Below, piece by piece: positions 5,041-38,771 of a stretch of DNA of 39,754 nucleotides. Every line of letters starts with the position of its first letter. Position 1 is the first letter of the stretch. Both the position numbers and the translations under genes were made by a program. A model generated the notes under the pieces. That model saw only the letters and a list, made by a program, of their open reading frames with translations. It did no database searches and was not told the DNA's origin. Origin of the DNA: a virus; the IMG/VR virus record IMGVR_UViG_3300022602_002313, positions 1 through 39,754 of that record, one strand, 5' to 3'.

Positions 5041-5629
5041 TACTGAACATCTGCACTATTGGATGCAGGCCATCCGCAATAGTGAAAATCCTATGCGAAC
5101 TATGGATGCCTTTTGGAGTGGACAACTAAAAAGCAAAGAGTGGTTAATTACATCATTAGCTATGCATTGCCCTGATGGTCCATACTCAATTGACATACAC
5201 GGCGGCTGGGTTGGTGTACTAGCCAGTATGTTATTTCAAAGTTCTATTCCTGTTAAGCATATTCGAAGTATTGATATTGATCATACCTGCGAAGACATTG
5301 CAACTATGATGAACAAAGGTGAAGAGATTGCAGGTAAGTTTCGTGCTGTAACATCAGACATGTGTACTATTCGCAGTGACGCTGACGTTATTATCAATAC
5401 CAGTTGTGAACATATTACACAAGATCAATACGACTTATGGCTAAGTGGACATCCGCAAAATAGTTTAATTGTTCTACAAAGTAACAACTATAACATACCA
5501 GAACATATTAGAATTGCTAATAGCTTAGAAGAATTCAAAGAACAAAGCCAACTTAAGGTTTTGTATGCTGACGAATTGCAATTACCGTTGTATAATCGTT
5601 ATATGATAATAGGTTCAAAATATGCTTAA
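5030..5629 (+). CDS. Methyltransferase-like protein with a TTG start
   Basis: The central region resembles a Rossmann SAM-binding fold: SIDIHGGWVGVLASML (residues 53-68) as motif I, then RSIDID (79-84) as the acidic end of strand 2, and DVIINTSCEHI as motif IV. At 199 aa it is short for a class I methyltransferase and lacks a clear substrate domain. The start is TTG at 5030, six bases after AGGAG, a strong ribosome site; the first internal ATG would remove the N-terminus. It overlaps the upstream rSAM gene by 11 bp and the next by 8 bp. A nicotianamine-synthase-like or other SAM-using activity is possible. Confidence 0.6.
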   Translation: MLIDTEHLHYWMQAIRNSENPMRTMDAFWSGQLKSKEWLITSLAMHCPDGPYSIDIHGGWVGVLASMLFQSSIPVKHIRSIDIDHTCEDIATMMNKGEEIAGKFRAVTSDMCTIRSDADVIINTSCEHITQDQYDLWLSGHPQNSLIVLQSNNYNIPEHIRIANSLEEFKEQSQLKVLYADELQLPLYNRYMIIGSKYA

Positions 5630-13572: not shown

Positions 13573-14238
13573 ATGCTTATACCTACCAATTATACAACAG
13601 ATCCAAAATTATTTCAAGAGGCGTGTAGCCAATTACCTAAAGCAGGTATGAAAACTACTATTAATCAACCCACAGGCAATTTCTTTTATGACCCTTGGGA
13701 GTTAAAAGAAGAGTACAAAGGAACCATTTGGGAAACGCTTTATAACTCATTGCCTGTTGTTAAAGGTGAAGCGAGAATAATTATTTTGGATCCAGGACAA
13801 AGTTATACAGCTCATGCAGACATTGATGACAGATATCATTTAAACATTTTAGGAGATGAAAGTTTCCTAATTGATTTAATGCGCGAGCAGATGCACAAGT
13901 TGAATCAAGACGGCATATGGTATGATATGGATGCGGGCTTTCTGCATACTGCCGCTAATTTTGGTCGTCGTGCTAGAGTGCAATTGGTTATTAGAAAATT
14001 ATTAAAAAAGAATAAGTTAGTTAACCCTATTGAAGTGGCATTAACTACAACAATGACAAACGCAGACCATGCTAGATACTTGTTTGACAACACAATTAGT
14101 ATTTGGCTCAACGAAGCAAACAAGCACGGATACATAACTAACTTTGCATACTCGTCACCTTTTGTAAAATTTACTATAGAACAAGATAAGTTAGATTCTT
14201 TAAAACATATTTTGCCAGACGAGTTTAAGATCCTATGA
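13573..14238 (+). CDS. 2OG-Fe(II) oxygenase-like protein, Asp/Asn-hydroxylase type
   Basis: DPGQSYTAHADIDDRYHLNI gives HxD (His81, Asp83), and DAGFLHTAANFGRRARVQLV gives the distal His125 and a 2OG-binding Arg135. This is the jelly-roll layout of the aspartyl/asparaginyl beta-hydroxylase group. The N-terminal 65 and C-terminal 80 residues are family-specific extensions. It begins the plus-strand cassette 13573-16955 and overlaps the B12-type rSAM gene by ATGA. Likely hydroxylates a pathway intermediate or peptide side chain; substrate unknown. Confidence 0.75.
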   Translation: MLIPTNYTTDPKLFQEACSQLPKAGMKTTINQPTGNFFYDPWELKEEYKGTIWETLYNSLPVVKGEARIIILDPGQSYTAHADIDDRYHLNILGDESFLIDLMREQMHKLNQDGIWYDMDAGFLHTAANFGRRARVQLVIRKLLKKNKLVNPIEVALTTTMTNADHARYLFDNTISIWLNEANKHGYITNFAYSSPFVKFTIEQDKLDSLKHILPDEFKIL

Positions 14239-15779
14239 CCCACGCACTATTCTTTAGCCTAACAGGTAAACGCTGGGAACGCATATTGTGGACTCACCGT
14301 GTAGCTACCTTTCTACGTATGAATGACTGGGATGCAGAAGTTGTAGACTTTACAGCATTTTGGCAACTAGAAGAATTACAAGAGTTTGTGCGTTCACGCA
14401 CTACTGGCAAGACAGTTATGTTTTGTTTTGGTACTGCTTTCCTAAATCCATGGAGCCCATACCTAAATGAATTCATTGCTTGGCTAAAGAAAGAATATCC
14501 AAGCATACCAGTTGTAGTTGGTGGTAACAATTCATTAACTACTCCTGCTAATGGTGTAGACTATTGGGTTGATAGTTATGGAGAAAATGCTGTACTAGCA
14601 TTGTGCCAACATCTTATTGGAACGCTAGGTGCTCCATTAATGACTGACCCTGCGTTTTTTGGATCAAAGAAAGTTATTCGTGGGCTTCATCATTATCCTT
14701 CAGCACCATTAGATAGTTATCTAGTGGACTATGAAGCACGTGACTTTATGATGCCTTGGGAGTGCCCACAGATTGAAACAGCACGTGGTTGTATGTTTAG
14801 TTGTAGCTATTGTAACTTTCCTATCATAGGACAAGCCAAAGATGTTAGTGTTAGCAAAGAACAATTTAAACTGCAAATGCAAACAGGCTACGAAAAGTGG
14901 GGCATTAAGAATTGGCGTGTAATGGACGAAACATTTAATGATCGTCCTGAGAAACTACAAAAGTATGCTGAAGCTGTAGATGAACTAGGATACAATCCTT
15001 GGATATGCGGATTTGCTCGTGGCGATTTAGTAGTAAAACATCGTGAGCATTGGGACACTTATATTAGATTAGGATTCCTTGGACACTCAATGGGCATTGA
15101 AACATTTAATCATGCCGCAGGCAAACTTGTACGTAAGGGCATGGATCCTGATAAGCTACAACAAGGACTGGTAGAGTTTCAAGAGTATACTGATATTCAT
15201 GCGCCTAATCGATACAGAGCTAACATACAAATGATATGTGGTATCCCTGGAGAAAGTGTTGAGTCTTGGAATACATCTTTAGAATGGCTTAATACTAATT
15301 GGACTAGACAAAGTGCCAGCGCACATATTTTAGAAGTACCCGATTATGATGAGTCATTAACTAATCAAAGTCGATTTACTAAGGAACTTGTAAGCAATGG
15401 GTTAGTTAAGTTAGAGGCTAGACAAAATCCAGGGTACGAAGTTACTAAAGACAGCAGGGGCAATGTTGTATTCAAATCTACTACCCCAAGAGGCGGTGGC
15501 GTGGGCAGTACTAGAAACGACATTGTTATTTGGAGTCATAACACTATGGATTGGTATCAAGCTGAAACATTGGTGCAAGAGTTTTATAGCGATAATGGAT
15601 TCAAAGGACTGCGTGGGTGTAATCCATTCTTATCTGATAGGCTATTCGCTTTCTACGAAACAAACTCCTATGAAGAAATATATAATTACAAACTATCAGA
15701 TGTAGATACAGCCGATCAAAAGTTTAAGGATCAAGTTCAATCTTACATTGATAAAAAATTAAATTGGAATACACAATGA
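14235..15779 (+). CDS. B12-binding-type radical SAM protein (514 aa)
   Basis: Residues 1-130 resemble the Rossmann-like cobalamin-binding domain of class B rSAM enzymes (strand-loop-helix pattern, VMFCFGT, VVVGGNN, GENAVLALC), although no DxHxxG cobalamin ligand is visible. The rSAM core follows with ARGCMFSCSYC (Cys186, 190, 193) and GIPGES near residue 334. Members methylate unactivated carbons or rearrange rings. Missing the DxHxxG motif does not rule out base-off B12 binding. Coupled by ATGA overlaps to the oxygenase before and the kinase-like gene after. Confidence 0.85.
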   Translation: MTHALFFSLTGKRWERILWTHRVATFLRMNDWDAEVVDFTAFWQLEELQEFVRSRTTGKTVMFCFGTAFLNPWSPYLNEFIAWLKKEYPSIPVVVGGNNSLTTPANGVDYWVDSYGENAVLALCQHLIGTLGAPLMTDPAFFGSKKVIRGLHHYPSAPLDSYLVDYEARDFMMPWECPQIETARGCMFSCSYCNFPIIGQAKDVSVSKEQFKLQMQTGYEKWGIKNWRVMDETFNDRPEKLQKYAEAVDELGYNPWICGFARGDLVVKHREHWDTYIRLGFLGHSMGIETFNHAAGKLVRKGMDPDKLQQGLVEFQEYTDIHAPNRYRANIQMICGIPGESVESWNTSLEWLNTNWTRQSASAHILEVPDYDESLTNQSRFTKELVSNGLVKLEARQNPGYEVTKDSRGNVVFKSTTPRGGGVGSTRNDIVIWSHNTMDWYQAETLVQEFYSDNGFKGLRGCNPFLSDRLFAFYETNSYEEIYNYKLSDVDTADQKFKDQVQSYIDKKLNWNTQ

Positions 15780-17758: not shown

Positions 17759-18283
17759 TCAATCGTACATTGTTATTTGTAGTGTGTATCTTACATTATA
17801 GCCTACGTTAGCAGGACCGTGTATAGTCATAGGATCACTCCACTCATACATGTCTCCTGCCTTGTAATTAGATATGTATTTGTCATCCCATACAAATATA
17901 TGTCCAGGCTCCCAATCTTGTAAGAACATTGTATAGCGCACAGGATTACTAACTTCAGTTAGTTGAGGATCAATGTGCATAGCCTGAAACTCTCCTGGAT
18001 ACAACATTACAAACCACCAATTAATATTAGAACGGTGCTCGGGCACCGCTGGTAATGTAAATTTAAAATCCTGCATTTCTTTAGACTTAGGATTCATCTG
18101 ATGAAAGAAATGTTTGTTACTAGAATAACCTGGACGAGCCATCTCTGTAAATTTTTCTAGGATAGGATTACCTTTCCATCGATCTGGCTGCCAAACAGGA
18201 GTGCGATCACCTTGGGACGCTTTTAGATGTTCTATAATACCCTGTTCTTCAATCCAGGATTTAAAATTGTCAATATATTTCAT
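17759..18283 (-). CDS. 2OG-Fe(II) oxygenase-like protein (174 aa), paralogue of 19090 gene
   Basis: QAMHIDPQ gives His103 and Asp105, TIHGPANVGYNVRYTLQIT gives His155 and Arg165, the full iron triad plus 2OG-binding Arg on a jelly-roll. FLQDWEPGHIFVWDD and YISNYKAGDMYEWSDP are shared almost unchanged with the protein at 19090, showing recent duplication. The two copies flank another oxygenase gene (18283). Start at 18283 overlaps the upstream stop as TAATG. Substrate unknown. Confidence 0.78.
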   Translation of the reverse strand: MKYIDNFKSWIEEQGIIEHLKASQGDRTPVWQPDRWKGNPILEKFTEMARPGYSSNKHFFHQMNPKSKEMQDFKFTLPAVPEHRSNINWWFVMLYPGEFQAMHIDPQLTEVSNPVRYTMFLQDWEPGHIFVWDDKYISNYKAGDMYEWSDPMTIHGPANVGYNVRYTLQITMYD

Positions 18284-19086
18284 TAATAGCTCTCTAAATG
18301 ATCAATGCCTAGCTGTTTACGAAATTCTTCTGTAAACTTGCCATCAATTCTCAAACTATAGCTTTGCTCCATAATACGTTCGCCACCGTGCCAGTCAACA
18401 TCATTCCACCATGCGGCTCTAGTGTTAAGATACGTCTTGTCTTTTGTTTCTGGATCCCATAGGTACATAGCTTTCTTTGTGTTGGGGCGAACGTGTATAA
18501 ATTCGTTGCGATGCGGTTTAACTACATTAACACCATTCTTAGCATCTAAGTCTCTGTGTTCAAACGGGATACCATCTGCTTCACAGTGGAAGAATATAAC
18601 ACGGCCGATGTCTTCAAATACAGTACCTACTAGGCTTTCTACCCATTTAACTGTTCCTGGAAAGTATTTGGCTTCGGGTGTTAACTTACGTGGAGCAGTA
18701 CGATCATCCCACGAACCCTCTTCCCACAAGTAATAGTAAATGTATGGATCGTATGAACCCATAGCCATTTTTAAAAAACGTGTAAAGATATTGCGCTGTT
18801 GGAAATTTTTAAAATCTGTTGGCATTAATTTTATGCCTGCTTGATATATTGGATCGTCTTTAGGCAGTTCCATAAACTCGTCCATAGACTGATAGATAGG
18901 TTTCCAACTAAGTTTATAGCTCATGTCGTCGAATGTAAAACCTGGTTTCATCCATGTGCCTTCTTTGGCAAACTCTCGTGCTAGAGCAAATCCTGTAAGT
19001 ATCTCAGGTTGTAATTGATCAAATTGATTCATGTCTAAGTATGGAGACATATCAAAGTAATGTTTGTTGTTTATGCCGTGTATCAT
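18283..19086 (-). CDS. 2OG-Fe(II) oxygenase-like protein (267 aa), paralogue of 28273 gene
   Basis: The C-terminal half has FEHRDLD (His177, Asp179), WHGGERIMEQSYSLRIDGKF (His233, Arg246) and a DPETKDKTYLNTRAAWWN block; the equivalent block in the 28273 protein is DPETGERIFMNTRVAYWN. Both start MIHG and share an N-terminal helix region (FDQLQPEI/FDSLRLEI and AREFA/ARDFA). The N-terminal 150 residues are specific to this family. It sits between two related smaller oxygenases. Iron and 2OG dependence are inferred from the residues. Confidence 0.7.
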   Translation of the reverse strand: MIHGINNKHYFDMSPYLDMNQFDQLQPEILTGFALAREFAKEGTWMKPGFTFDDMSYKLSWKPIYQSMDEFMELPKDDPIYQAGIKLMPTDFKNFQQRNIFTRFLKMAMGSYDPYIYYYLWEEGSWDDRTAPRKLTPEAKYFPGTVKWVESLVGTVFEDIGRVIFFHCEADGIPFEHRDLDAKNGVNVVKPHRNEFIHVRPNTKKAMYLWDPETKDKTYLNTRAAWWNDVDWHGGERIMEQSYSLRIDGKFTEEFRKQLGIDHLESY

Positions 19087-19618: not shown

Positions 19619-20683
19619 TTAGATAGTTCGTGCATCATATTTCCTTTGATACTTTTCAGGTATAGTATCGTATAGTGGTAAGTTTTTATTTACTGAACCA
19701 TCACGAAGTATAACTTGATGCACTAGTGGACTTACAGGTTTTCCTGGTATCATATCTGCCCATGATTCTGTTTGATCCTCTTCTAAGTCAATAGTACGAG
19801 CGTCGGGCCACTGAATTATTTTAACAAGTATTCCGTTTATGCGTAACGGATAATGAACTCTAATTCCAAAATTAGGATCGTATTTGTGTTCCCAACCTTT
19901 TTTATCGCAAATCTCTATTACACGATCTACCAGTTGTGATAGATATATTTTTTCTTCGCCTGGATGTCTTCCGATATCAGTACCAACTCGAATCCTATAC
20001 TGTTGGCAAATACGCTCTCCAAACTCTTGTATTTCTTCTAGGCAATATTCAAGTTGAGCAACAGTTTCCAAAGTGTAGCTAACATTTTTAATTTTCATAC
20101 CTAGCTTCAGGCAATTCTCAATCCCTTCCATTTGTTTTTTTCTAACAGTGTGTCCTTGATAGTCCGGATGATTTAAACCTATAGTCCACAATACTTTAGG
20201 CATGTTGGCAAACTGTTTAGCATAATCATAATCAGATAGATAGACGCCATTAGTTAAAATCATAATTGCTCTATGCTTGCCCGGCAATGATTGAATAGCT
20301 CTACACAACTCTGGCAAATCTTTACGTACTGTAGGTTCAGCACCCATTAGTGCAACTGCGTAGCCATCGTCATCCCAAGATTTAATTATATCAAGAATGC
20401 TTTCTATTGAAGGATCCTTACTCATGTTATCTGGAATTTGATAACAATGCGGGCAATTTAAATTACACTTATTAGTAATGTCTAAACAGTAGGTTGTGTT
20501 CTCTGGCTTTGGATATTTGTAATTGATATAAAACTCAGCATTTGGTTCTACAAGGTGTTCGCTGTAGCCGTGCCACTTGCAAGTCTTTCCTAACCATACT
20601 GCGCCATCACGTTCAAAACGGATTGCTGGTACGTGTCTATAACAATGCTCACATACTGACGTTGTATCTGCTAGTTTATTCAT
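19619..20683 (-). CDS. Radical SAM protein with N-terminal CxxC...CxxH motif (354 aa)
   Basis: The N-terminus has CEHC (Cys11, 14) and CKWH (Cys35, His38) around RHVPAIRFERDG, a small metal-binding domain. The rSAM core follows with CNLNCPHC (Cys73, 77, 80) and the Gly/Glu pair LMGAEPT in place of GGEP. This N-terminal domain plus CPHCY core recalls archaeal MJ0619/tetraether-synthase-like rSAM proteins, but that match is from memory of the motif only. It overlaps its tandem paralogue at 20676 by 8 bp. Substrate unknown. Confidence 0.82.
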   Translation of the reverse strand: MNKLADTTSVCEHCYRHVPAIRFERDGAVWLGKTCKWHGYSEHLVEPNAEFYINYKYPKPENTTYCLDITNKCNLNCPHCYQIPDNMSKDPSIESILDIIKSWDDDGYAVALMGAEPTVRKDLPELCRAIQSLPGKHRAIMILTNGVYLSDYDYAKQFANMPKVLWTIGLNHPDYQGHTVRKKQMEGIENCLKLGMKIKNVSYTLETVAQLEYCLEEIQEFGERICQQYRIRVGTDIGRHPGEEKIYLSQLVDRVIEICDKKGWEHKYDPNFGIRVHYPLRINGILVKIIQWPDARTIDLEEDQTESWADMIPGKPVSPLVHQVILRDGSVNKNLPLYDTIPEKYQRKYDARTI

Positions 20684-21713
20684 GTCTATATTTTTCAGGT
20701 ACTGTATCTAACAACATCTGTCCTTTGTTAACTGCTTGATCTCGTAATATAACTTGATGTAGCAATGGGCTCATTGGCTTTCCGGGTACAATGCTAGCCC
20801 AAGATTCGCTTTGTACTTCTTCTAAATCAATTGTATCTACATCACACCATTTGATAAATTTGTGCTCAATACCATTTATTCTAACAGCATAGTGTGTACG
20901 GTTACCGCCTACATAATCGGGATCCCATGACCACCCGTTATTCTTACAAAATTCTTCTGCAACTGCAACTAACTCAGACAAGTAAAGTTCTACAAAGTCA
21001 CCTTCTGGTACACGGCCAATTTCAACGCCTAATTGTATTCTAGCATTGATACCAAATTTTTGTACTTCATGCATGACATCCGTTAATTGTTCTAAGTTTG
21101 CTAATGTGTAAGTTAGTGTCTTAACATCTAATCCTAGCTTAAGGCAGTTTTCTAAACCTATCATTTGTTTAGTACGAATTTGCCCGCCATTATAATCAGG
21201 ATGGTTAAGTCCAAAGGTCCATTTGAGATTAGGTATGTCTTTAAATCGTGCAACGTAATCCCACTTGGCCAAATACACACCATTCGTAACTATTATAACA
21301 TTTCTGCGTTTAATGGGCAATGCATGGATTGCCAAAACTAAATCGGCTAAGTCCTTGCGTACAGTAGGTTCAGCACCAACTAGACTAACAGGATAGCCAT
21401 TGTCTGGCCACGACATAACTTCTGCTAACAGATAATCTATACTAGGATCCTTACTGTTATTGTCGGGCATTTGATAGCAATGTGGACAGTCTAAGTTACA
21501 ACGATTAGTAATGTCTAACCAATATGAACCTGGTCTACGTTTTTGATATTGTTGCGAGTTGTAAAACTCTGAACTAATGTCTAACACAGCTTCTTGGTAT
21601 CCGTGCTTTGGACAAGTTTTGCCTAGCATCATTCGACCATCTTTTTCAAATCGTTCAGCTGGTACGTGACGATAACAATGCCTGCATAGTGAAATAGTTT
21701 CTGAATTATTCAT
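20676..21713 (-). CDS. Radical SAM protein with N-terminal CxxC...CxxH motif, tandem paralogue
   Basis: Cys10, Cys13, Cys34 and His37 repeat the N-terminal metal motif; CNLDCPHC (Cys72, 76, 79) and LVGAEPT are the rSAM core. Blocks such as NGVYLAKWDY, GLNHPDY, RKDL and SPLLHQVILRD are shared with the downstream copy, so this is a tandem duplication. An AATAAATA octamer lies eight bases before the ATG at 21713. It heads the minus cassette 21713-16921, which pairs these rSAMs with three oxygenases and an SGNH hydrolase. Confidence 0.83.
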   Translation of the reverse strand: MNNSETISLCRHCYRHVPAERFEKDGRMMLGKTCPKHGYQEAVLDISSEFYNSQQYQKRRPGSYWLDITNRCNLDCPHCYQMPDNNSKDPSIDYLLAEVMSWPDNGYPVSLVGAEPTVRKDLADLVLAIHALPIKRRNVIIVTNGVYLAKWDYVARFKDIPNLKWTFGLNHPDYNGGQIRTKQMIGLENCLKLGLDVKTLTYTLANLEQLTDVMHEVQKFGINARIQLGVEIGRVPEGDFVELYLSELVAVAEEFCKNNGWSWDPDYVGGNRTHYAVRINGIEHKFIKWCDVDTIDLEEVQSESWASIVPGKPMSPLLHQVILRDQAVNKGQMLLDTVPEKYRHE

Positions 21714-21721
21714 GTGGCAAA

Positions 21722-21729
21722 TATTTATT
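21722..21729 (-). promoter_or_regulatory. Candidate T4-type late promoter octamer before the tandem rSAM cassette
   Basis: The minus strand reads AATAAATA, eight bases before the ATG at 21713 and without a Shine-Dalgarno sequence. The predicted start site would leave a leader of about 0-3 nt. Confidence 0.4.
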
Positions 21730-21744
21730 GATAATTACTATACC

Positions 21745-22428
21745 ATGGAATATTATTACAACAACGTACCTGGGCAAGGTCTTTGCCGCAACAATTTAAT
21801 TTACACTAGTCTTATATCCGAAGACAAGAAACTGTTTTGCCAATGGTATCACAATGATACTGAATATCACAAAGGCAAGAACCAAGTTGTCGATCCTGCC
21901 AAAATGGAAGAAAAATGGCTACGTGAAGTGAACTACTTAACACAGATGCGTAACATCTATCCAGACTTGATTCCAAAAATTACTAAAATTGATTTGGAAA
22001 GTCGTAAGTTGTTTCTTGAAATAGACGGACCTGACTTTTGGGAACAAGCAGGTTGTGACATAGCAAACTACGATAGCGTAGTTCCAGACTGGCAAGAACA
22101 GATGCTTGAAATTATTAAGGCACATAAAAAATTAGGTTGGCACAAATATAGTATGCATCCTAGCAGTTATTTTGTTGTCAAGGGCAAGTTAAAAAGTATT
22201 AACTATTTTTTTACCTATCGTGATACTGAACCTAATATCAGTATTGCAGATGTTGAAAGTCATATCTATACAACTAGACAAGATGAAATGCGTAAGCATT
22301 TAGATACACTAGGAATCAAATGGGACAAACCACAACCGTGGGAAGTTATGGATCAACTATGTTGGGCAAGTTTTAGTACAAACTATCCAGCAGAATTTAT
22401 AGAGCGTGTAAAAGAATGTATAAAATAG
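21745..22428 (+). CDS. Kinase-like-fold protein, paralogue of the 15776 gene (227 aa)
   Basis: The chosen start at 21745 gives MEYYYNNVPGQG and avoids overlap with the divergent rSAM gene; the frame is open to an ATG at 21712, which would add 11 residues. The series WLREVNYLTQM, PDLIPKITKIDLESRKLFLEIDG, WQEQMLEIIKAHKKLGWHKYSMHPSSYFVVKGKLKSINYF matches the 15776 protein in order and spacing. It looks like a divergent small kinase or pseudokinase without clear catalytic Asp residues. It is coupled to the GNAT-like gene by a 13-bp overlap. Confidence 0.5.
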   Translation: MEYYYNNVPGQGLCRNNLIYTSLISEDKKLFCQWYHNDTEYHKGKNQVVDPAKMEEKWLREVNYLTQMRNIYPDLIPKITKIDLESRKLFLEIDGPDFWEQAGCDIANYDSVVPDWQEQMLEIIKAHKKLGWHKYSMHPSSYFVVKGKLKSINYFFTYRDTEPNISIADVESHIYTTRQDEMRKHLDTLGIKWDKPQPWEVMDQLCWASFSTNYPAEFIERVKECIK

Positions 22429-22949
22429 TTCCTTGGTCGGAGGATTTAGATTTAACCAACTTCTATGCTGAAGCAGACCGTAGGGGTTTTGTAAATAACG
22501 CAAATCAGAAATCAATGATCGATTGCTTTCGTAATGAGCGTGAATGGTGCGTGTGGATTCTTTACTACAACAATAACGCCATAGGCAGTGTAGGCGCACA
22601 CAGCATAGAAGAAGGTTATCGTATTTGTGCAAGGACTTGTGTACTGTCTAATTTATTACCATTAACTACACTTCGAACACGTAATCAAATTGCTACACAT
22701 CAGCATGTTACAGCACAATACTTAATGCCCGCTTGTATTGCTTGGGCTAAAGAACCTATGTATATTACTAGTCACCCTAGCGAAGTCGGTACACAAAGAC
22801 TAGTACATACAGTTTGGGGTCCTACATTAGAAAAGACAGGAGTGCTTACTAGAGCATTTGAAAAAGAATACAGAGGGCATCTGCAGACTTTTTGGAAATT
22901 AAATGTAGAGGTGTTCCTTGATCAATTAAGCAACACCCCTAAGATTTAA
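22416..22949 (+). CDS. GNAT-like acyltransferase candidate (177 aa)
   Basis: Residues 1-60 resemble the GNAT N-terminal helices and strands (ADRRGF, WCVWILYYNNNAIGSVGAHSIEEG, where the enzyme's substrate strand 4 would be), followed by RICARTCVL, a strand-5-like piece, and a long helical half. The acetyl-CoA pyrophosphate loop (Q/RxxGxG/A) is not clear, so this is a tentative fold call. It ends exactly abutting the convergent ANL gene (stops at 22949 and 22950). The stop/start overlap with the upstream gene is ATGTATAAAATAG. Confidence 0.5.
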   Translation: MYKIVPWSEDLDLTNFYAEADRRGFVNNANQKSMIDCFRNEREWCVWILYYNNNAIGSVGAHSIEEGYRICARTCVLSNLLPLTTLRTRNQIATHQHVTAQYLMPACIAWAKEPMYITSHPSEVGTQRLVHTVWGPTLEKTGVLTRAFEKEYRGHLQTFWKLNVEVFLDQLSNTPKI

Positions 22950-24494: not shown

Positions 24495-25943
24495 ATGGTG
24501 ATGAAGTTCCGAACCGAAAAGCAAAGTACTATTGCTTTTTGTATATTGGATATTATGGACAAGTGCCAAAGTGGCGAAGCCAGAGAAGTGTGTGCTAACT
24601 TAACGGATTTTTTATTACACCGAATTGACAAGTACCAATATGATATCTTTATTGGTAAAGATGAGGACGAGCTATTAAAGACAGTGACTGATGACGGATA
24701 CCGTCATGCTGTTCTTATCTCAGCAGGAACAAGTTTAGGACTATCTGATAGATTGTTTGATGCTGTTGAAGATCAATGCAACGAAGATTTTTTTATAGCC
24801 GGGCATATATTAGACAGAGGCGATCATTCTTACTATAAAAAGAATGCCTGTTTTGAACTACATCAACAATTTTATATTGTCAATCTTGAGCAGTATAAAG
24901 AATTAGGATATCCTACAGTAGGTAATGAGGAATGGGTTGAGTATCAACAAATTGCTCCTCTCCGTAGCGAGGAATGCTTACACGGCGATCCAGAAATTCC
25001 AGCATGGATGAAAAAAGGTACTGAACTTAGAACCTACTCTGTTAAACTGCATGGATGGAATATACTAAACGTTGGGCTAGAAAATGATAAACTTTTAATA
25101 CCATTGACTCGACGAATCCGTGATAGCAAAAAATATTTGTATTATGAACATGATCATGTGTTCCTAAGACAACTAGCAGATATAAAATACTATCAGTTCT
25201 TTGGAATGAATTTCTTTGCAGGTTGGAACTCAGATCGTCTTAGAGCAGACTTGCCCTTTGATGGCCCCGTGGAGCAATATGCTAGTGTGGGCATTGGCTT
25301 TAACTGGATTAAGAATTTAGAAATTATAGGCTTTACAGAAAATACCAAAGTAATTTTTACAGACATCAATTACAACTGTTTGATGTTTATGAAAAAAATG
25401 GTTGAAGAATGGGACGGAAAAAATTACGCAGATTTTTATTGGGAACACAAACCTATGCTTCCTAACAACCCTCCGTACATTCCCGAAACATACAAAGATC
25501 AAATAGCAGAACAGTGGGATAAGTTCTTAACAACAGTTGAGGATTGGGAAGGGCTTTGGGCTAAGGTTAAAAACTTAACATACGAGTATATTCTCATAGA
25601 CTACACGGCGTCATTTAACTTTGATTGGTTAGAAGCTGGTAAGAAAACGTTATTGAACCTAAGCGATTTGTATAACCACTCTCCATTCATTGCCGCAACT
25701 AGCATGAAGTATCGTATTAGTTGTGAAAACAATTTGTTACAGAAACTTAAAAACAAAGATCCAAATATAACATTACTAATAACTTCTAGAACTGCTGATG
25801 GGTTTTGGAAAGTTAAAAAACCAGATCAGCGTTTAGATAAGGTTAGCAATTTTGACTACACAGATATTAATGAATTAAAAACACCGGACTGGCATAAACT
25901 AGATTGGGCACACAATAGCGAGCGTCCACTAGGAGTTGTTTGA
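24495..25943 (+). CDS. Large uncharacterised island protein (482 aa), possibly glycosyltransferase-like N-terminus
   Basis: The N-terminal 160 residues have alternating strands and helices ending in FIAGHILDRGDHSYY and HQQFYIVNLEQYKELGYP, a pattern that recalls GT-A-like sugar transferases with a His/Asp pair, though no DxD motif is certain. The C-terminal half (about 270-440) is another alpha/beta domain with VIFTDINYNCLMFMKKM and YILIDYTASFNFDWL, possibly Rossmann-like. I do not recognise the family. A RBS (AGGAAAT) precedes the ATG. It overlaps the oxygenase gene at 25943 as TGATG, so they probably act together. Confidence 0.6.
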   Translation: MVMKFRTEKQSTIAFCILDIMDKCQSGEAREVCANLTDFLLHRIDKYQYDIFIGKDEDELLKTVTDDGYRHAVLISAGTSLGLSDRLFDAVEDQCNEDFFIAGHILDRGDHSYYKKNACFELHQQFYIVNLEQYKELGYPTVGNEEWVEYQQIAPLRSEECLHGDPEIPAWMKKGTELRTYSVKLHGWNILNVGLENDKLLIPLTRRIRDSKKYLYYEHDHVFLRQLADIKYYQFFGMNFFAGWNSDRLRADLPFDGPVEQYASVGIGFNWIKNLEIIGFTENTKVIFTDINYNCLMFMKKMVEEWDGKNYADFYWEHKPMLPNNPPYIPETYKDQIAEQWDKFLTTVEDWEGLWAKVKNLTYEYILIDYTASFNFDWLEAGKKTLLNLSDLYNHSPFIAATSMKYRISCENNLLQKLKNKDPNITLLITSRTADGFWKVKKPDQRLDKVSNFDYTDINELKTPDWHKLDWAHNSERPLGVV

Positions 25944-26587
25944 TGAAAGAGTATTTTCAATCTGACGGACGTTATTTAAAACTAGATATACCCCTTCCAT
26001 ACAAAGAAATGTGTGCAGAAGCATTTGCACTAATTGATAAATTTACACCTCACAGAGGCGATGAAGATTCTCATGGTTGGGAAAGTTTAACCATACACGG
26101 CTTAGGTTGGAACAAGCACGAGAACTATGACGTCTATGGATTTAAGAAAGGCAAAGATGCTAGCAACAGTATGCATTGGACTGAAATAGCAGACTTATGC
26201 CCTATAACAACTCATTGGTTGAAAGAAGTGTTCCCCTCTAACAAATATGGTCGTGTTAGATTTATGTTGTTACGTGCCGGAGGGAAGGTTGCTCTACACA
26301 GTGATTCAAGTATAAAATTAATTGAAAACATAAATGTTGCGCTTAACAATCCAATTGGATGCAAATGGATATGGGGAGACGGTGAGGAGTTAATAATGGA
26401 GCCAGGCGGAGTATACGCTATGAATCTACACTATCAACATTCTGTTGTTAATAACAGTAATGAAGATCGTATGCATATGATTATTGCTCGACACGATGCT
26501 ACAGACGGATGGAAACAGTTGATAGAAGATGCCTCTGTCAAGCAAGGCGTTACTGGAAACTATATTGTAATAGACGAATTGCCGTAA
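25943..26587 (+). CDS. 2OG-Fe(II) oxygenase-like protein, Asp/Asn-hydroxylase type (214 aa)
   Basis: RAGGKVALHSDSS gives His119 and Asp121; YQHSVVNNSNEDRMHMII gives His166 and Arg176. The GRVRFMLLRAGGKV strand and PGGVYAMNLHYQHSVVN block fit the aspartyl/asparaginyl hydroxylase jelly-roll. The ATG at 25943 sits in TGATG with the upstream stop. The gene ends with a 28-bp tail-to-tail overlap with the TauD-like gene. Likely partner of the large unknown protein before it. Confidence 0.78.
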   Translation: MKEYFQSDGRYLKLDIPLPYKEMCAEAFALIDKFTPHRGDEDSHGWESLTIHGLGWNKHENYDVYGFKKGKDASNSMHWTEIADLCPITTHWLKEVFPSNKYGRVRFMLLRAGGKVALHSDSSIKLIENINVALNNPIGCKWIWGDGEELIMEPGGVYAMNLHYQHSVVNNSNEDRMHMIIARHDATDGWKQLIEDASVKQGVTGNYIVIDELP

Positions 26588-27438
26588 TCCTGATCCGGAA
26601 AATCAAAAGCCATTCTGTGTAAGAGTCTGCGTTCTATTTCTTTAAATGGCCAACGTTTGTGTATACCAAGCCATTGTTCTGCTATAACAACATCTCCGTC
26701 ATCCCAATCGTGATGATAACAATACTTGTCTTGTATTGTATGCTCGGATAACCAACTAATGATGTTTTTATTTTCTTCCTCTGACAATCCTACAAATCCA
26801 GAAATTTGTAAGAACGGAAAATAAAATCCTTTTCTGCCTGCTATGTTTTTCATAACAAGACTAGGTGTATAATCGTCAATTACATCAGGCGCATCGTACC
26901 CTAAGTTCATTTCTTCTTTAGACCAATTTGCCATTATAATTTTTAAATTTTCTAGAGCATTTCTTTTAGCTGGATCTAACTCGTCGTATGCAAGTATATT
27001 ATTGTTCCAAGTAGTTCTAGAACCTTTAGTGCCACGCACACCGTATAACCAAATTAAAGATCGCTTTAATGGATCGTGTGGATCATTGCAGTGCCATACC
27101 ATTTCATCTTCCCATCCTGCAATTCCGGGTAATCCTTTTTCATTCTTTTCACCTGTAACTCTTAATGCAAACTTTTCAGAGCCGTCAACTTCCGCGCCTC
27201 GATAACATTCTGCATCAAAAGACCCTTCAACATCTAAATGAAATTGCTGAGGATTTTTAAACATCTTAGCAACCCTAACTTCATCTTCTACGGTTAAGGC
27301 TTGCCCCTTGGCCACTACTAGTGTATTTGTTGCTAGTAGTTTTGCTACATCATTAATGTCTTCTTGCGTGGCTTTTTTAAAATCAAAATTTTCAAGTATA
27401 ACAGTCCAACCGTTTTCGTGTAATTTATATTGTATCAT
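26560..27438 (-). CDS. TauD-like dioxygenase with an altered iron triad (292 aa)
   Basis: It matches the TauD/TfdA-like protein at 27425 over its length: KLHENGWTV start, RTTWNNNILAY, YHHDWDDGDVVIAEQW, GIHKRWPF. The distal His is His260 and the 2OG Arg is 271 or 275. At the proximal position the paralogue has WHSD (His112, Asp114), but this protein has VWHCND: His116-Cys117-Asn118, then Asp119. The HxD carboxylate is therefore an Asn, or the site uses Asp119 shifted by one. This could lower iron affinity, open a ligand site as in Fe halogenases (where Asp is Ala or Gly), or mark loss of activity. Confidence 0.78.
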   Translation of the reverse strand: MIQYKLHENGWTVILENFDFKKATQEDINDVAKLLATNTLVVAKGQALTVEDEVRVAKMFKNPQQFHLDVEGSFDAECYRGAEVDGSEKFALRVTGEKNEKGLPGIAGWEDEMVWHCNDPHDPLKRSLIWLYGVRGTKGSRTTWNNNILAYDELDPAKRNALENLKIIMANWSKEEMNLGYDAPDVIDDYTPSLVMKNIAGRKGFYFPFLQISGFVGLSEEENKNIISWLSEHTIQDKYCYHHDWDDGDVVIAEQWLGIHKRWPFKEIERRLLHRMAFDFPDQDYGNSSITI

Positions 27439-28276
27439 TTAGCACCTCTGTGTAATCTACTCCTGCTCTGTGCAACACTCTAATATCCATTTTATCAAAG
27501 GGCCAGCGTTTGTGTATGCCATTCCATTGATCAGATATAACTACATCACCGTCTTGCCACTCGTGATGATAAACATATTTTTCACTTAGTACGTGTTTAC
27601 AAAGTAGTGATTTAAGTTCATCAGATTGTTCTTGTGTAAGTTCTACAAACTTACCTAGCTGAAAAGGTGCAAAATACATCCCAGTGTTTCCAGTAAGGGT
27701 TTGATGAACAAGCGGCGGGTTCCACTCTGTGTTATACACTACTCCGACATGATCAGGAGCATTAGGTGCATTTATATTTCCATAAACAGAGTGTAAATTT
27801 GAAATTTGATTTTTAATAGTATCGTCTAGATCAGCGTATGCAAGTATGTTGTTATTCCAAGTAGTTCTAGAACCTGCTGTTCCTCTAATACCGTACAAGT
27901 ACAATAACGAACTACGATCTGGTTCTTCTGGGGTATCACTGTGCCAGTCAAATCCTTCTTCCCAATCAGCCATCCCAATTTTTCCATCGCGAAGTTCTTT
28001 AGTAACTCTAAAAATTATTCCGTCTGGATCTTTATTAATGTCTATTGCATAATCGTTAAAGAATGGAGAATCTTTAGGATACAATGATTTTACATTTCTA
28101 AACATCTTTAGAAATCTTAATTCGTCATCAACAGTCAACGATTGATTTCTAATAACAACACAAGTATATGTTGCAATTAATTTTTCAAGCTCTTTAATAT
28201 CTTCTTGTGTACAATTTTTTATATCAAAGTTAGCAAAAATAGTCCAGCCGTTATCGTGCAATTTATAATTTATCAT
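27425..28276 (-). CDS. TauD/TfdA-like 2OG dioxygenase (283 aa)
   Basis: FDWHSDTPEEPDR gives HxD (His112, Asp114), WNGIHKRWPF gives the distal His255, and an Arg follows in KMDIRVLHR. The length, the GVVIRNQSLT-type N-terminal strand (VVIRNQSLTVDDEL) and RTTWNNNILAY after the HxD are standard for the family, whose members oxidise sulfonates, amino acids and many intermediates. It overlaps the altered paralogue by 14 bp and the oxygenase at 28273 by ATGA. A tandem duplication with divergence at the metal site is the simplest history. Confidence 0.83.
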   Translation of the reverse strand: MINYKLHDNGWTIFANFDIKNCTQEDIKELEKLIATYTCVVIRNQSLTVDDELRFLKMFRNVKSLYPKDSPFFNDYAIDINKDPDGIIFRVTKELRDGKIGMADWEEGFDWHSDTPEEPDRSSLLYLYGIRGTAGSRTTWNNNILAYADLDDTIKNQISNLHSVYGNINAPNAPDHVGVVYNTEWNPPLVHQTLTGNTGMYFAPFQLGKFVELTQEQSDELKSLLCKHVLSEKYVYHHEWQDGDVVISDQWNGIHKRWPFDKMDIRVLHRAGVDYTEVLNDTI

Positions 28277-28998
28277 ACTGGCATTCCTACTTTACGTTTA
28301 AAGTCATCAGTAAAGTAGCCATTCACTCTTAAAGTATAAGTGGGTCTCCATACAGGTAACCCTCCATGCCAATCTCTCTCATTCCAATATGCTACCCTAG
28401 TATTCATAAAAATACGCTCGCCAGTTTCTGGATCAAGTATATAGAAAGGTCTATCTATATCGGTTTTTATGTGTATAAATTCTGGAAGGAAGCCTTCTGT
28501 TTCAGTACCGTCTGATGGATCAAAGTGTTCCCATGGTATGCCGCCAGCATCTACAGATATTAGATTTGAACTATGTAGGTTAGTTATTATGCCTGCTGTT
28601 ACAAAACTTTGTACCCATTTTAGTAAACCAGGGAAATGATCAGCTACAGGATGGTTAACGCCGTCTGATGTAACTAATTGAAAAAGTCGATAGTAGTCGT
28701 ATGCACCGTATGCGTTTTTTAAAAAGTCAGTGCGTTGATTATATGTTAGATCCTTGCCAGCAATTTTTAATGGATCAGTATCTGGTAAAGAATTCCATTT
28801 ACGTGCTACATCAAATAATGGATTAACCTGGTACCCTTGTGCATGAGGATGCATTGTACCTTCTGGAACTTCTTGGAGTCCGTCATATGCAAAGTCTCTA
28901 GCAGTTGCTATTCCTCTGCATATTTCTAAACGTAAGGAATCAAATTCTGTTAAGTCTATGTATTTTTCTAAATCTATAAATCGTTGGCCATGTATCAT
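28273..28998 (-). CDS. 2OG-Fe(II) oxygenase-like protein (241 aa), paralogue of 18283 gene
   Basis: WEHFDP gives His158 and Asp160, WHGGLPVW His211, and TLRVNGYF Arg224. The MIHG start, FDSL-x-LEI, DPETGERIFMNTRVAYWNERDWHGG and the C-terminal VNGYFTDDFKRK match the 267-aa protein at 18283. It heads the minus cassette of three oxygenases (28998-26560). An AATAAATA octamer lies five bases before the ATG with no ribosome site. Substrate unknown. Confidence 0.7.
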   Translation of the reverse strand: MIHGQRFIDLEKYIDLTEFDSLRLEICRGIATARDFAYDGLQEVPEGTMHPHAQGYQVNPLFDVARKWNSLPDTDPLKIAGKDLTYNQRTDFLKNAYGAYDYYRLFQLVTSDGVNHPVADHFPGLLKWVQSFVTAGIITNLHSSNLISVDAGGIPWEHFDPSDGTETEGFLPEFIHIKTDIDRPFYILDPETGERIFMNTRVAYWNERDWHGGLPVWRPTYTLRVNGYFTDDFKRKVGMPV

Positions 28999-29043: not shown

Positions 29044-30597
29044 TTAACCAATACGCCAAACAGAACCATCTGAGTAAACTGGCACTTTGTTTGAACCGCC
29101 ACCTGTGTATGTAGATGCATAAGTTGTTGCTGTTGCATCTGACACAAATGCTCTTGCGCCAACACCAGATGTTGCCGCGCTAGGTAATGCTGTGCCTGCT
29201 ACAGAATATACTGTTGTTTGTAATACTGCGGAATTGAATATACCGGCACTATTGAATATAGCATAGTTAGCAACAGATCCGCCGCCACCTGAAATCAAAG
29301 CAATAGATGATTTTGGATAAGGATCGCTGATGTTTGCAGTAGAATCCCAAATAGTACCAATCGCGCCTGAGAATCCGTAAGTGTTTGCACCAATATATCC
29401 TTTTATTGATATAACCATACCACCAGTGTTTACAGAAACAGGAGTTGGAGCGGCAAGTGTACCATTATAGTAACCTACGCTCAAACTGTTACCTAATTTG
29501 GCAGCTAGTGTCATACCATTTCCGGCATCAGGAGCATTAATAGTCGAAGTATTTAAAGTAGTTATTGTACCAGTAGTAATGTTAGTTGTGCCTAATGTTG
29601 TAGTTCCTGACACTCCTAAAGTACCACTAGCACTTAGGTTACCAGTTATGTTAATTGAACCAGTACCAGTAATGTTATTGTTGTTTAATACTAAATTGCC
29701 GCCTAGTGTAGGAGTAGTATCTTGTAGAATTGCTGTTAATCCGCTAGCGGCAGAGTTTACACTCATTGTACCAGTTGACGCATTATATACAAATGTAATG
29801 TTTGAATCTGGACCGCCTGCTGAGAATGTTGTAGATGAAAGACTAGCTACAGTTAAATTGGTAATAGCTATTCCGTTTTCTGCATTAGCAAGGCTTGTTG
29901 CTACTGTAATTTGGTTAGTACCTGCTGTAGGATTAATGATGTAATATGTACCTGCAGACAACCCACCGCCACCTACGCCAGTAACAATAATCGGAGTAAG
30001 AGCTACTAGCCCAGTATTCGAACCAAGTGTAACAAAAGAGATAGTTCCAGTAATTGCAATGCTTGTGCCTGCTGTAGGTGCCGCACTTAATATAAATCCA
30101 CTGCTTTGTGTTCCGGAAACAATATATGTGCCAGTAGTAATACCTGTGCCTACTAGTACCATACCTATTTGAGGAACAGTACCACTTACGTAAGTTAAAA
30201 TGCCAATACCGTTAATTGTTGATAATGTTCCTATAAACGATATTGTAGAAGTAGTAGTAGCAGTAACGTTTCCTGTAACAGTTGGAGATCCTTTAGCAGT
30301 AAACATTGTAGCCACATCGTTTTTAGCTTTAGTAGAATTGTAATATAAATTTACTGTACCTTGTGCTAAATTATCAGTGGTATAACCGGATAAAGTTCCT
30401 GCAAAGTTAAGCGTTTGTGTTGTTGAATTCCAGCTTAAACCGGTACCGGCTGCTGTAGAAAGTACGTTAACACCGCCAGCAGTACTGCCGTCGCCAATAT
30501 ATAATTTCTTACTGTCTGTTGTGTATACAATTTCGCCTAAGTCAAAAACAACTGTTTGTCTTTGGGCATCAGTTCCGCGTCTAATTTGTAGCGACAT
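29044..30597 (-). CDS. Tail-fibre-like structural protein (517 aa)
   Basis: The N-terminus MSLQIRRGTDAQRQTVVFDLGEIVYTTDSKKLYIGDGSTAGG is the RRGT...GE-xx-xxD-xxKLYIGDG module that starts many phage tail-fibre and head-fibre proteins. The rest is low-complexity, rich in Gly, Thr, Ser, Val and Ile, with TGN(I/V)T-type repeats typical of beta-helical fibres, and a C-terminal RAFVSDATATTYASTYTGGGSNKVPVYSDGS region, common at fibre ends. It probably binds the host surface. The ATG has GGAGAT eight bases upstream and a separate late promoter further up, unlike the island genes. Confidence 0.85.
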   Translation of the reverse strand: MSLQIRRGTDAQRQTVVFDLGEIVYTTDSKKLYIGDGSTAGGVNVLSTAAGTGLSWNSTTQTLNFAGTLSGYTTDNLAQGTVNLYYNSTKAKNDVATMFTAKGSPTVTGNVTATTTSTISFIGTLSTINGIGILTYVSGTVPQIGMVLVGTGITTGTYIVSGTQSSGFILSAAPTAGTSIAITGTISFVTLGSNTGLVALTPIIVTGVGGGGLSAGTYYIINPTAGTNQITVATSLANAENGIAITNLTVASLSSTTFSAGGPDSNITFVYNASTGTMSVNSAASGLTAILQDTTPTLGGNLVLNNNNITGTGSINITGNLSASGTLGVSGTTTLGTTNITTGTITTLNTSTINAPDAGNGMTLAAKLGNSLSVGYYNGTLAAPTPVSVNTGGMVISIKGYIGANTYGFSGAIGTIWDSTANISDPYPKSSIALISGGGGSVANYAIFNSAGIFNSAVLQTTVYSVAGTALPSAATSGVGARAFVSDATATTYASTYTGGGSNKVPVYSDGSVWRIG

Positions 30598-35627: not shown

Positions 35628-36203
35628 CTAGCGGTAGTCAAAATTTATGACTACACGTTTTTCAGATTGATTTGGATGTCTACCAGCATGAAACTGTGAT
35701 CCATTAAAAATTACAAATCTACCTCTTTTAGGACTAACACGTTTCAGTATTGATCCGTCATTGTTAAAAAATAATGTATCCCCATCACTGTCATTTACAT
35801 AGTATAATGCTACCTTGTGATCAATTAAACAATCTAAGTGAGGCATGTTAGTAAATTCTTCTTTAGAAAAATTACACTGTGTTTGTAAGTTTGCTTTAAC
35901 TCTTAAAAATTCGTTAAACACAATATGTTGTTTTAGTTTTTCAAACAGTGGAACAGCAATACTAGAGTATGCCGGACTACATGCTTGTTTTTCAATAGTA
36001 TAGAACATGTGTATAAACTGCGGATATTCTTTTACTTGATAATCTTTCCAAAGTTCCTTAGGAAGATATGAATTTAAATATTCGTAATTCTTTTCCTCTA
36101 CAGTAGCCTTAGTCAAGTACCAAGGAAATGCACCGTCTGTCATAGCATCTTCAACAAACGCTTGTTGTTCTACTGGAATTAAGTTATCGTAGATTTCTAT
36201 CAT
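35628..36203 (-). CDS. 2OG-Fe(II) oxygenase-like protein (191 aa)
   Basis: MPHLDCL gives His122 and Asp124; GSQFHAGRHPNQSEKRVVINFDY gives His172 and Arg183. The SPKRGRFVIFNGSQFHAG block is standard for prolyl-hydroxylase-like phage proteins. It starts by ATGA overlap with the carbamoyltransferase gene. It may hydroxylate the same intermediate handled by the carbamoyltransferase and halogenase. Substrate unknown. Confidence 0.78.
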   Translation of the reverse strand: MIEIYDNLIPVEQQAFVEDAMTDGAFPWYLTKATVEEKNYEYLNSYLPKELWKDYQVKEYPQFIHMFYTIEKQACSPAYSSIAVPLFEKLKQHIVFNEFLRVKANLQTQCNFSKEEFTNMPHLDCLIDHKVALYYVNDSDGDTLFFNNDGSILKRVSPKRGRFVIFNGSQFHAGRHPNQSEKRVVINFDYR

Positions 36204-37648
36204 TTTAATAAAATTTCATTGCCGATAATCATGCAGTCTATTGCACTATTATAAAATAATTCTTTAGCATTTTCTATATGCCCTGCAATAGGTTTGCCAG
36301 CAGTATTTAAACTAGTGTTTAGTAGTACAGGCAAACCTGTAAGTGCTTTGAACTCTTCTAGAAGTAATCTAAACACAGGATTGTTATTGCCTACAGTTTG
36401 TAATCGGCAAGTGCCGTCAGTATGTGTGATAGCGCCTAATTCATTGCTAGAAACATTGGTTACAAACAACATATAATCATCATCAAATTTGTAATCAAAA
36501 TATTCGCTAGCATATTCTTTTAGAACACTTGCACCAAACGGTCTATAATTTTCTCTGTTCTTAATACTGTTAATCTTTTCACGTCCGTTTGGTATACTAG
36601 GGTTCATTAGTATACTACGATTACCTAGCGCACGAGGGCCAAGTTCTCCATGTCCCTGATACCAGCCAACTGTTTTACCAGATGCTAGTAACTGTGCGGC
36701 TTGTTTAATTGTATCTATAGTAGGAGTACTAGATGCTTGATCCTCTACAATGTAAGGGAAGTTATCTAGTTTAAACTTTGGCAATCCGTTTTTAATTCGT
36801 AACCATTCTATAGCACCTAGACTTATTCCTTCGTCACTGCAATGCGGAGGAATAATCAAATTGGGAAAATAATTTTTAAGTTCTGTGTTCCAGATTACAT
36901 TTTGTGCTACACCGCCTGTATAACTAATCACATCATCTTTGTTAGCATACTGCTTAAAGAAATTTAACAGTACAGAACCCATATAGGTATGTACAGTTTT
37001 AATCCAATCTAAAGATGTAAGATCACCTAATAATTGATCACCTTTAAAAGCATACCAATGTTCCTTAGAAAAGATATCATGTATACTACGCATATCGAAT
37101 TGCTGTAGAAACTCTAAATAGTTTTGATCAACTGTGCCGTATGATTGTAGGCCCATGAGCTTGCCTGCAACGTCATCGGGTATAGAAGCTTTAATACCTA
37201 ACGCATATCCAACATCGCGCATAGCGAAGCCAATTGACCCTGTAGATAAATCTCCAGAATCGATTAACTTGTCATTACGATAAACACTCCATGTTTTCAT
37301 ACTGCCTAATCCGTCGATAACAATGTGTACGTCTGGAGTTTGTTCAGTAAGCATCCATGTGCTTAATGCGTGACAGTAGTGATGATTTAAAATATGAACA
37401 CTAGGATGATTTAAAAACCAAGTGTTGGCTTCATCGGCTATGGGTAAGTGTACAGCAATATCATTAACGTCTGCTAGCTCAATTCCCCAAACTTTTTTAA
37501 TAGTATGTAACCATTGCCAATTATTAGGATACGAATATTTTTTAATGTTTTCGTATCGTTCTAATTTTAGATAGCGTAGACTGTTACCATCGTAATAGGA
37601 AATATTACAATCATGTGCTAGTAGGTTTACAGCCAGCAATTTTTTCAT
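36200..37648 (-). CDS. NodU/TobZ-type O-carbamoyltransferase (482 aa)
   Basis: HHYCHALS (residues 89-96), DGLGSM, GGVAQNVIWN, PPHCSDEGISLGA and GELGPRALGNRSIL are the signature blocks of the NodU/CmcH/TobZ carbamoyltransferase family, which makes carbamoyl-adenylate and transfers the carbamoyl group to a hydroxyl. The C-terminal YrdC-like block with NRENYRPFGASV is complete. At 482 aa it is slightly shorter than the usual 540-600. It overlaps the halogenase gene by 38 bp, indicating a joint role, possibly in decorating a sugar or virion component. Confidence 0.9.
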   Translation of the reverse strand: MKKLLAVNLLAHDCNISYYDGNSLRYLKLERYENIKKYSYPNNWQWLHTIKKVWGIELADVNDIAVHLPIADEANTWFLNHPSVHILNHHYCHALSTWMLTEQTPDVHIVIDGLGSMKTWSVYRNDKLIDSGDLSTGSIGFAMRDVGYALGIKASIPDDVAGKLMGLQSYGTVDQNYLEFLQQFDMRSIHDIFSKEHWYAFKGDQLLGDLTSLDWIKTVHTYMGSVLLNFFKQYANKDDVISYTGGVAQNVIWNTELKNYFPNLIIPPHCSDEGISLGAIEWLRIKNGLPKFKLDNFPYIVEDQASSTPTIDTIKQAAQLLASGKTVGWYQGHGELGPRALGNRSILMNPSIPNGREKINSIKNRENYRPFGASVLKEYASEYFDYKFDDDYMLFVTNVSSNELGAITHTDGTCRLQTVGNNNPVFRLLLEEFKALTGLPVLLNTSLNTAGKPIAGHIENAKELFYNSAIDCMIIGNEILLK

Positions 37649-38771
37649 ATAATTTTAAATTCTCTAGATTTTGTTTAAACGATGCTACGCCCCATGTGCC
37701 ATAATTGCCGTCTAGTCTTAATGCCATGTCTTTTTCTAATTTTGAATGCTCAACAAAGTCATTAAACTTTGTATTGTGTTTAGCACGAGCTATAATTTTT
37801 TCTCCACGTTCTTGAGCAAAATCCCAGAAAGGTGTTTTAAATTCTGATCCAGCAAAATAGTGTAGCATAATGACTGTTTCAATTTCTTGCACATAGTCAG
37901 TATAATCTTTATTAAGCATATCTACATTGCCGTTATTAAACCAACTGTCATAGGCCATTTTGTTGATAACATTCATTAAAGCTATGCTGGTTGCTTCTAG
38001 TGGTTCTAAGAAAAAACTAGCATTACCATTGTGTGCTACTCTGCCAGCAAAGTTTTGTTTTCTATAATAATTTTTAAAACTAAATGTGTTGTAATCTGTA
38101 CTTGGAGTTAGATCATAATCTGCAAATATCTGCTTAACATCTTCTTTAACTTCGTCAAGTGTGTTTATTGTATTGTTGTACATATAGCCTATACTACAAC
38201 GATTTTGTAATGGTATACCAAAAACCCAACCGTATGGGCGAGCTAGTGTTAGCGTGTGCTGAAACCTAGCATGGTCCCAGTAACAAGGTGTAACGTGTAC
38301 TGAGTTGACTGGGATAGATTCTGTAAGATTAAATTCGTCATACGATGTAGGCTTGCCAGAACAATCCATTACAAAATCTGCATCAATGTCATTTGCTGAA
38401 ACAGCACGTTCAATTATTTTAACTTTATCTTTAAGTTGATTTAGAATGTATTCTTGCAGTTTGACTGCATTAAAATGATAGCCAACTCCTGGAGGTATGA
38501 AATGATGGGTGTATGCTGTTCCATCACTCCACCCTGTTTTATAAATTCCGCCTTTGAATGATCCGTTTACATGATTTAAATCATCATGTGTGAATCCAAT
38601 ATTTTCGTATAAGGCGGCGGGGAAATCCAACGTAGAACCCTCTCCAACTGCTTGAGGATTTACGTTGGGGTCATAATATAATTCTATTTCGCAATTTTTA
38701 GCCCAGCGATAGAAATGTGTTAGAGCTAACATTCCTGCAGTTCCGCGACCTACTACTGCTATTTTTTTCAT
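37611..38771 (-). CDS. Flavin-dependent (tryptophan-type) halogenase (386 aa)
   Basis: GRGTAGM is the FAD dinucleotide motif, NGSFKGGI holds the catalytic Lys73 (compare the NASYKVAI Lys of PrnA), GWVFGIP (181-187) is a variant of WxWxIP, and FFLEPLEATSI holds the second catalytic Glu in the position of PrnA PLESTG. A viral halogenase from a cyanophage (VirX1) is known to iodinate diverse substrates. At 386 aa this protein is shorter than the 500-aa bacterial enzymes. The flavin reductase would come from the host. Substrate unknown. Confidence 0.87.
   Translation of the reverse strand: MKKIAVVGRGTAGMLALTHFYRWAKNCEIELYYDPNVNPQAVGEGSTLDFPAALYENIGFTHDDLNHVNGSFKGGIYKTGWSDGTAYTHHFIPPGVGYHFNAVKLQEYILNQLKDKVKIIERAVSANDIDADFVMDCSGKPTSYDEFNLTESIPVNSVHVTPCYWDHARFQHTLTLARPYGWVFGIPLQNRCSIGYMYNNTINTLDEVKEDVKQIFADYDLTPSTDYNTFSFKNYYRKQNFAGRVAHNGNASFFLEPLEATSIALMNVINKMAYDSWFNNGNVDMLNKDYTDYVQEIETVIMLHYFAGSEFKTPFWDFAQERGEKIIARAKHNTKFNDFVEHSKLEKDMALRLDGNYGTWGVASFKQNLENLKLYEKIAGCKPTST

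Follow-up and report, generated by a model that had tools for sequence, protein, structure and literature searches.

An Asn in place of the iron-binding Asp is, to judge from the sequences compared here, kept by a large virus-only group of TauD-like proteins, where almost all cellular relatives bind iron via Asp or Glu. Gene A, a homologue of the TauD-like Fe/2OG oxygenases, belongs to this group. It lies in the window, that is, the whole stretch of 39,754 bases that was analysed (IMG/VR virus record IMGVR_UViG_3300022602_002313). Its Asn118 is genuine, neither an error nor the mark of a lone decayed copy.

Gene A occupies positions 26560..27438 on the minus strand. The ORF of 292 amino acids runs over 26563-27438, and the stop codon extends it to 26560. 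The residues W115-H116-C117-N118-D119 are encoded at 27082-27096, within the interval 27079-27101 singled out by the preliminary description, and the Asn118 codon, AAT, is at 27085..27087 on the minus strand. In the alignment with E. coli TauD, whose site residues we take to be H99, D101, T126, H255, R266, and R270, Asn118 falls on D101, and H116, T142, H260, R271, and R275 fall on the other five. The spacing of the Arg pair from the distal His (His+11 and His+15) is the same in both proteins. The preliminary description had read WHCND as an Asn substitution in an otherwise intact site, with the distal His and Arg retained, and the ORF and this spacing bear it out. Gene A departs from the 2-His-1-carboxylate pattern H-x-D/E...H in having H116-C-N118...H260, and it also departs from the H-x-A/G motif of the halogenases.

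The match of gene A to PF02668 has an E value of 2.9e-22 and 80.3 bits (cut-off 27) and spans residues 16-276; the protein matches TauD and not the AspH family PF05118 (Asp_Arg_Hydrox). The AlphaFold2 model, calculated with an 81-row alignment as input, has a pLDDT of 94.1. It is predicted to have the double-stranded beta-helix TauD fold: the top 50 PDB matches are all of the TauD/TfdA type, and the nearest folds are FT_5, RdpA, AAD-1, taurine dioxygenases, and PlaO1.

Scans of viral contigs with gene A gave 22 loci at first and 75 in the second, alignment-based scan. When all TauD ORFs of this A group were read, 86 had Asn and 16 had Asp, and H-x-N was present in about 85% of the viral-contig relatives. 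Position 118 in the deduplicated alignment (81 proteins) is Asn in 65, Asp in 15, and His in one, a frequency of Asn well in excess of chance. H116, T142, H260, R271, and R275 are invariant in 65/65 of these HxN proteins; R271 and T142 are, by homology, the Arg and Thr that bind 2OG. For four A orthologues, dN/dS was 0.03-0.09 where computable; dS was near 2 or beyond, close to saturation, so that the ratios are rough but clearly low. The idea that the Asp-to-Asn change may be functional is supported. The proposal that Asp119 serves as a shifted ligand was rejected, because residue 119 varies freely in the HxN proteins of the A-group alignment (Q, D, H, K, V, E, M, R, L, S, P, T, or G). Six residues ahead of the distal His, position 254 is Glu in 49/65 HxN proteins and in 0/15 HxD proteins, whereas Asp occupies it in 15/15 HxD proteins (gene A numbering). 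Glu254 might be a coupled second-shell change; this is only a lead, and the pattern is partly due to descent.

The same residue is found beyond the A group. All 42 readable members of the group obtained by a scan seeded with Mosig have Asn (42/42), and the group seeded with P-HM1 has 23 Asn and one Ala. The cultured Prochlorococcus phages P-HM1, P-HM2, and MED4-213 read WHSNESG, and the cultured Pelagibacter phage Mosig reads WHSNGNS. The T142 position aligns with Leu in the Mosig group, which may be a matter of alignment or a genuine difference. It should be mentioned that the TauD gene of MED4-213 (201-1270 of locus L129) is represented in GenBank by two overlapping ORFs, CPMG_00110 and CPMG_00109; it is probably frameshifted or mis-sequenced in that entry. 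A divergent relative of the P-HM1 TauD, lying directly after ribonucleotide reductase genes in two near-identical contigs (L157:3223-4290 and L261:6004-7071), has H-S-A (WHSAEAG), a halogenase-type pattern, and a scan seeded with this HxA protein returned no contigs beyond these two. Viral TauDs are not all of the HxN type, since an ordinary HxD form is present in one record of an uncultured freshwater phage.

As a cellular control, 143 TauD-family proteins from cellular genomes were read: 128 had Asp, 15 had Glu, and none had Asn. The exception to Asp or Glu is one HxH protein, encoded beside a fibre-like gene on a MAG contig that also has phage tail-like genes. This protein was the one close relative in a scan of 84,980 species' genomes, and a cellular origin of HxN was rejected on this result. 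Its contig, NHCU01000062.1 (L099), binned as "Betaproteobacteria bacterium TMED41", resembles a phage fragment: it carries fibre-like genes, several oxygenases, and an SGNH gene, and its TauD reads HxH and is directly followed by a fibre-like gene. The genome of a Rhodospirillaceae MAG (G001, the source of locus L102) has 49 TauD-family matches in about 3.1 Mb.

Gene B (27425..28276, minus strand) is the tandem paralogue of gene A, with 43% identity over 288 columns, and the start of gene A overlaps its end. As first described, it reads WHSD; the Asp114 codon is at 27935-27937. Copies were counted in the 74 A-group loci and the window, near-duplicates and contig fragments included. A single copy is present in 46 loci, and every one of these is HxN. 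An HxD copy is present in 16 loci, in 16/16 of them together with an HxN copy, and the number of HxD-only loci is zero.

The direction of change was analysed with a narrower tree, made of the A group and cellular outgroups, and a wider tree to which the P-HM1 and Mosig groups were added, with the motif column masked. In both, the state reconstructed at the base of the viral side is Asn. One branch of the wider tree separates 60/60 viral rows from 49/49 cellular HxD rows with a support of 91, which is under the starred level. In the narrower tree, one long-branched cellular row groups with the viral side, which leaves the exact rooting of the clade insecure. The HxD members, namely gene B and its orthologues, a second group (HHDF/HLDF/HSDP), and one further protein, are nested among HxN lineages. 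A tree forcing all HxN proteins together without HxD was rejected, with a log-likelihood 205 lower and a p-AU of 2e-6 (the constraint group was set by motif, and the test was made once the tree had been seen); this means that the HxD copies are nested inside. On this phylogeny, H-x-N is ancestral in the viral clade, and the WHSD of gene B, itself a derived member of that clade, is a later return to Asp. The tree and the copy content together reverse the earlier picture, in which a decayed copy accompanied an intact gene. What had been described as an odd copy beside a normal one follows the rule of a large viral clade, and an HxD copy as the ancestral intact partner is ruled out by the tree, the AU test, and the copy distribution.

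The surroundings of gene A are also conserved. A gene at 28273..28998 (minus strand) lies between the fibre gene and the TauD copies, and its end overlaps the start of gene B by 4 bases. It has no Pfam match, looks like a 2OG oxygenase by eye, and has homologues near A-type genes in 32/74 loci. Upstream of the oxygenases, on the same strand, the gene at 29044..30597 (minus strand) encodes a receptor-binding tail-fibre protein with a Major tropism determinant N-terminal domain (Mtd_N; PF18454, E 4.7e-11), a domain known from a phage receptor-binding protein. The order of fibre gene, 28273 gene, and B/A recurs. A fibre homologue is present in 21 loci, as counted by homology (a regex search was less sensitive and was set aside), and others reach a contig edge or carry a diverged gene.

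On the opposite strand, convergent with gene A, is an oxygenase of the aspartyl/asparaginyl beta-hydroxylase type (25940..26587, plus strand; PF05118, E 2.3e-11; 30/74 loci). It is accompanied by a conserved 482-aa protein (24495..25943, plus; 30/74 loci), whose structure model (pLDDT 87) weakly resembles methyltransferases, with some glycosyltransferases lower among the matches and no Foldseek match with E below 0.001. Two further conserved cassette proteins, both in 34/74 loci and both with no Pfam match, are encoded at 22416..22949 (plus; perhaps acyltransferase-like, by eye only) and 21712..22428 (plus). Two radical-SAM enzymes with an HMPTM-type zinc ribbon follow at 20676..21713 and 19619..20683 (both minus; PF04055 and PF23545; 34/74 loci), and downstream of this pair is a conserved cassette gene at 18283..19086 (minus; 33/74 loci; no Pfam match). 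About 34/74 loci have this arrangement: the fibre gene, the 28273-like gene, and one to four TauD copies, with the PF05118 hydroxylase and the 24495, 22416, and 21712 genes on the opposite strand, followed by one or two radical-SAM enzymes of the HMPTM type and additional genes; the details vary locally. The TauD gene of Mosig is within a biosynthetic gene run that ends at tail-fibre genes, and the P-HM1 group is without the fibre/cassette setting. From gene order, a setting absent from many loci of the clade, a role of the A group in modifying the fibre or something carried by it can reasonably be inferred.

Other parts of the window are also rich in enzyme genes. A dense run of radical-SAM-type genes (3107-12074 and 14235-15779; Pfam matches for those tested, with one SPASM and one weak B12-binding match) also holds SGNH-type and aminotransferase-like genes, which is unusual for a 40-kb phage stretch. 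A NodU-type carbamoyltransferase (36200-37648) is beside several small 2OG oxygenases (34775, 35628, and 39156), the last of which reads WHHEN, suggesting HxE. A flavin-dependent halogenase-like protein (37611-38771; PF04820, PHROG tryptophan halogenase) has 386 amino acids compared with about 530 in the solved members, and its matches include the viral halogenase VirX1.

The invariant His and 2OG-binding residues, the strong selection, and the repeated exchange of Asn and Asp make it most likely that these proteins are active oxygenases whose third site is filled by Asn or water, and we hold this reading with moderate confidence. H116 and H260 would hold the iron, and R271 and T142 would hold 2OG. 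The third protein site might be taken by the amide oxygen of Asn118 or by a water molecule held by Asn118; the water is proposed by analogy with human AspH, which works with two His residues and water (PMC13168262). The predicted model comprises the protein only, without iron or 2OG, so direct ligation of the iron by Asn118 is putative. The likely reaction would be an oxidation, most simply a hydroxylation, of a substrate that the fibre-linked cassette produces or carries; this might be the receptor-binding fibre itself or a group attached to it. Paralogue B regained Asp later, and the one to four tandem copies probably target different sites or substrates. More tentatively, and with some doubt, a broader statement might be made: a natural 2-His-1-Asn iron site, kept throughout an exclusively viral branch of the TauD superfamily from aquatic phages, may support 2OG-dependent chemistry, hydroxylation or other anion transfer, on the receptor-binding fibre or a group carried by it, Asp having been regained in some tandem copies and Ala or His gained in others.

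It seems unlikely that the HxN proteins are non-catalytic, binding a ligand or partner and serving to regulate or scaffold the HxD copies. Such a role would be in line with engineered variants, which also weigh against the active-oxygenase reading: loss of the Asp usually abolishes hydroxylation, and P4H D414A/G and TauD D101A are inactive (PMC2767507). A D-to-G variant of FIH, however, keeps some activity (PMC10947486); the variants cited here are Ala or Gly substitutions and not Asn. A non-catalytic role would, however, leave the invariant 2OG and His residues and the strong purifying selection to be explained. HxN is the only copy at most loci (46/74), and HxD is never alone, so the suggestion of an inactive partner of an intact copy fits badly. 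The rise of HxD within HxN lineages is also hard to reconcile with a dead site.

We do not favour, and regard as quite improbable, the explanation that halogenation or a similar group transfer is what the HxN proteins catalyse, the lost carboxylate letting chloride or another anion bind the iron and pass to the substrate radical. The Fe/2OG halogenases do carry Ala or Gly at the same Asp position (PMC2767507), the window itself has the flavin halogenase-like gene, and the clade includes one HxH protein and the divergent H-S-A sister; because of this Ala-bearing member, anion-transfer chemistry retains some probability. However, Asn occupies the space left by Ala or Gly and is too large to imitate them simply, and HxG and HxA are almost absent from the clade. 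The site of AspH is open yet does not halogenate, and the repeated return to Asp suggests a role compatible with an oxygenase.

Post-translational deamidation of Asn118 to Asp, giving the usual triad, seems very improbable. Asn-Gly is the classic deamidation-prone sequence, and Gly directly follows the Asn in the Mosig group (HSNG, HANG); for this reason deamidation could matter there, and in that group only. In the A group, however, the Asn is mostly followed by Q, D, H, K, or others, which are slow contexts, and a coded Asp is one base away and has repeatedly been taken, so that such a detour is unlikely to be kept. An error in sequencing or assembly can practically be dismissed, and so can a mutation that arose recently in a single phage: no supporting point was found, the residue recurs in cultured phages and across many independent contigs, its codon varies synonymously (AAT in 52 and AAC in 13 of the 65 HxN proteins), and the homologues, by which the preliminary description had proposed to detect such an error as HxD, are mostly HxN.

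The conserved Asn bears on how such genes are annotated. Bioinformatic assignments of 2OG oxygenases rely on the HxD/E...H triad (PMC10947486), and here a whole viral clade, with members in cultured cyanophages, lacks the full triad but retains the remainder of the site. This makes the effect of Asn on the facial triad testable in natural enzymes, for which the near relatives with an evolved switch from Asn to Asp offer a natural comparison. At least one recent study reads phage tauD as a taurine or sulfur-starvation gene (PMC9469726). That reading is weakened by the altered iron site and, in many loci, by the tail-fibre-linked modification cassette; the common phage "taurine dioxygenase" genes of this group probably carry the wrong label, and their iron site may be an unusual one. 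New here are the conserved Asn and the cassette; the TauD fold and most of the site were already known. A literature search of open-licence papers turned up neither a description of an HxN TauD clade nor any check of the active site in viral TauD.

Gene A was compared with four sets of known systems. The Fe/2OG halogenases SyrB2, CytC3, and WelO5 lack the carboxylate at the same position but have Ala or Gly instead of Asn and belong to different families; any halide site in gene A would be putative. The TauD/TfdA dioxygenases (E. coli TauD, AAD-1, RdpA, and FT_5) have a fold like that of the gene A model (Foldseek E about 1e-18, TM about 0.75) and share with gene A the proximal and distal His, the 2OG Arg/Thr positions, and the H-x-W strand. 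The differences are the Asn for the iron-binding Asp, an identity of only 15-20% to the solved members, the virus-only distribution of the gene A clade, and an invariant Q255 in this clade where TauD has the Asn of its WDN. R275, at the position of TauD R270, is retained, but near gene A there are no tau genes, and the fibre/radical-SAM cassette is found instead. The phage proteins labelled "taurine catabolism dioxygenase" in P-HM1, P-HM2, MED4-213, and Mosig have H-S-N and fall on the viral side of the tree, like gene A; those of P-HM1 and P-HM2 are about 23-25% identical to it, are single copies, and lie outside a cassette of the gene A type. Human AspH, a natural hydroxylase with water in place of a protein carboxylate (PMC13168262), belongs to another family and has an HxG-type site as against HxN, but it has in common with gene A the idea of a carboxylate-free iron site.
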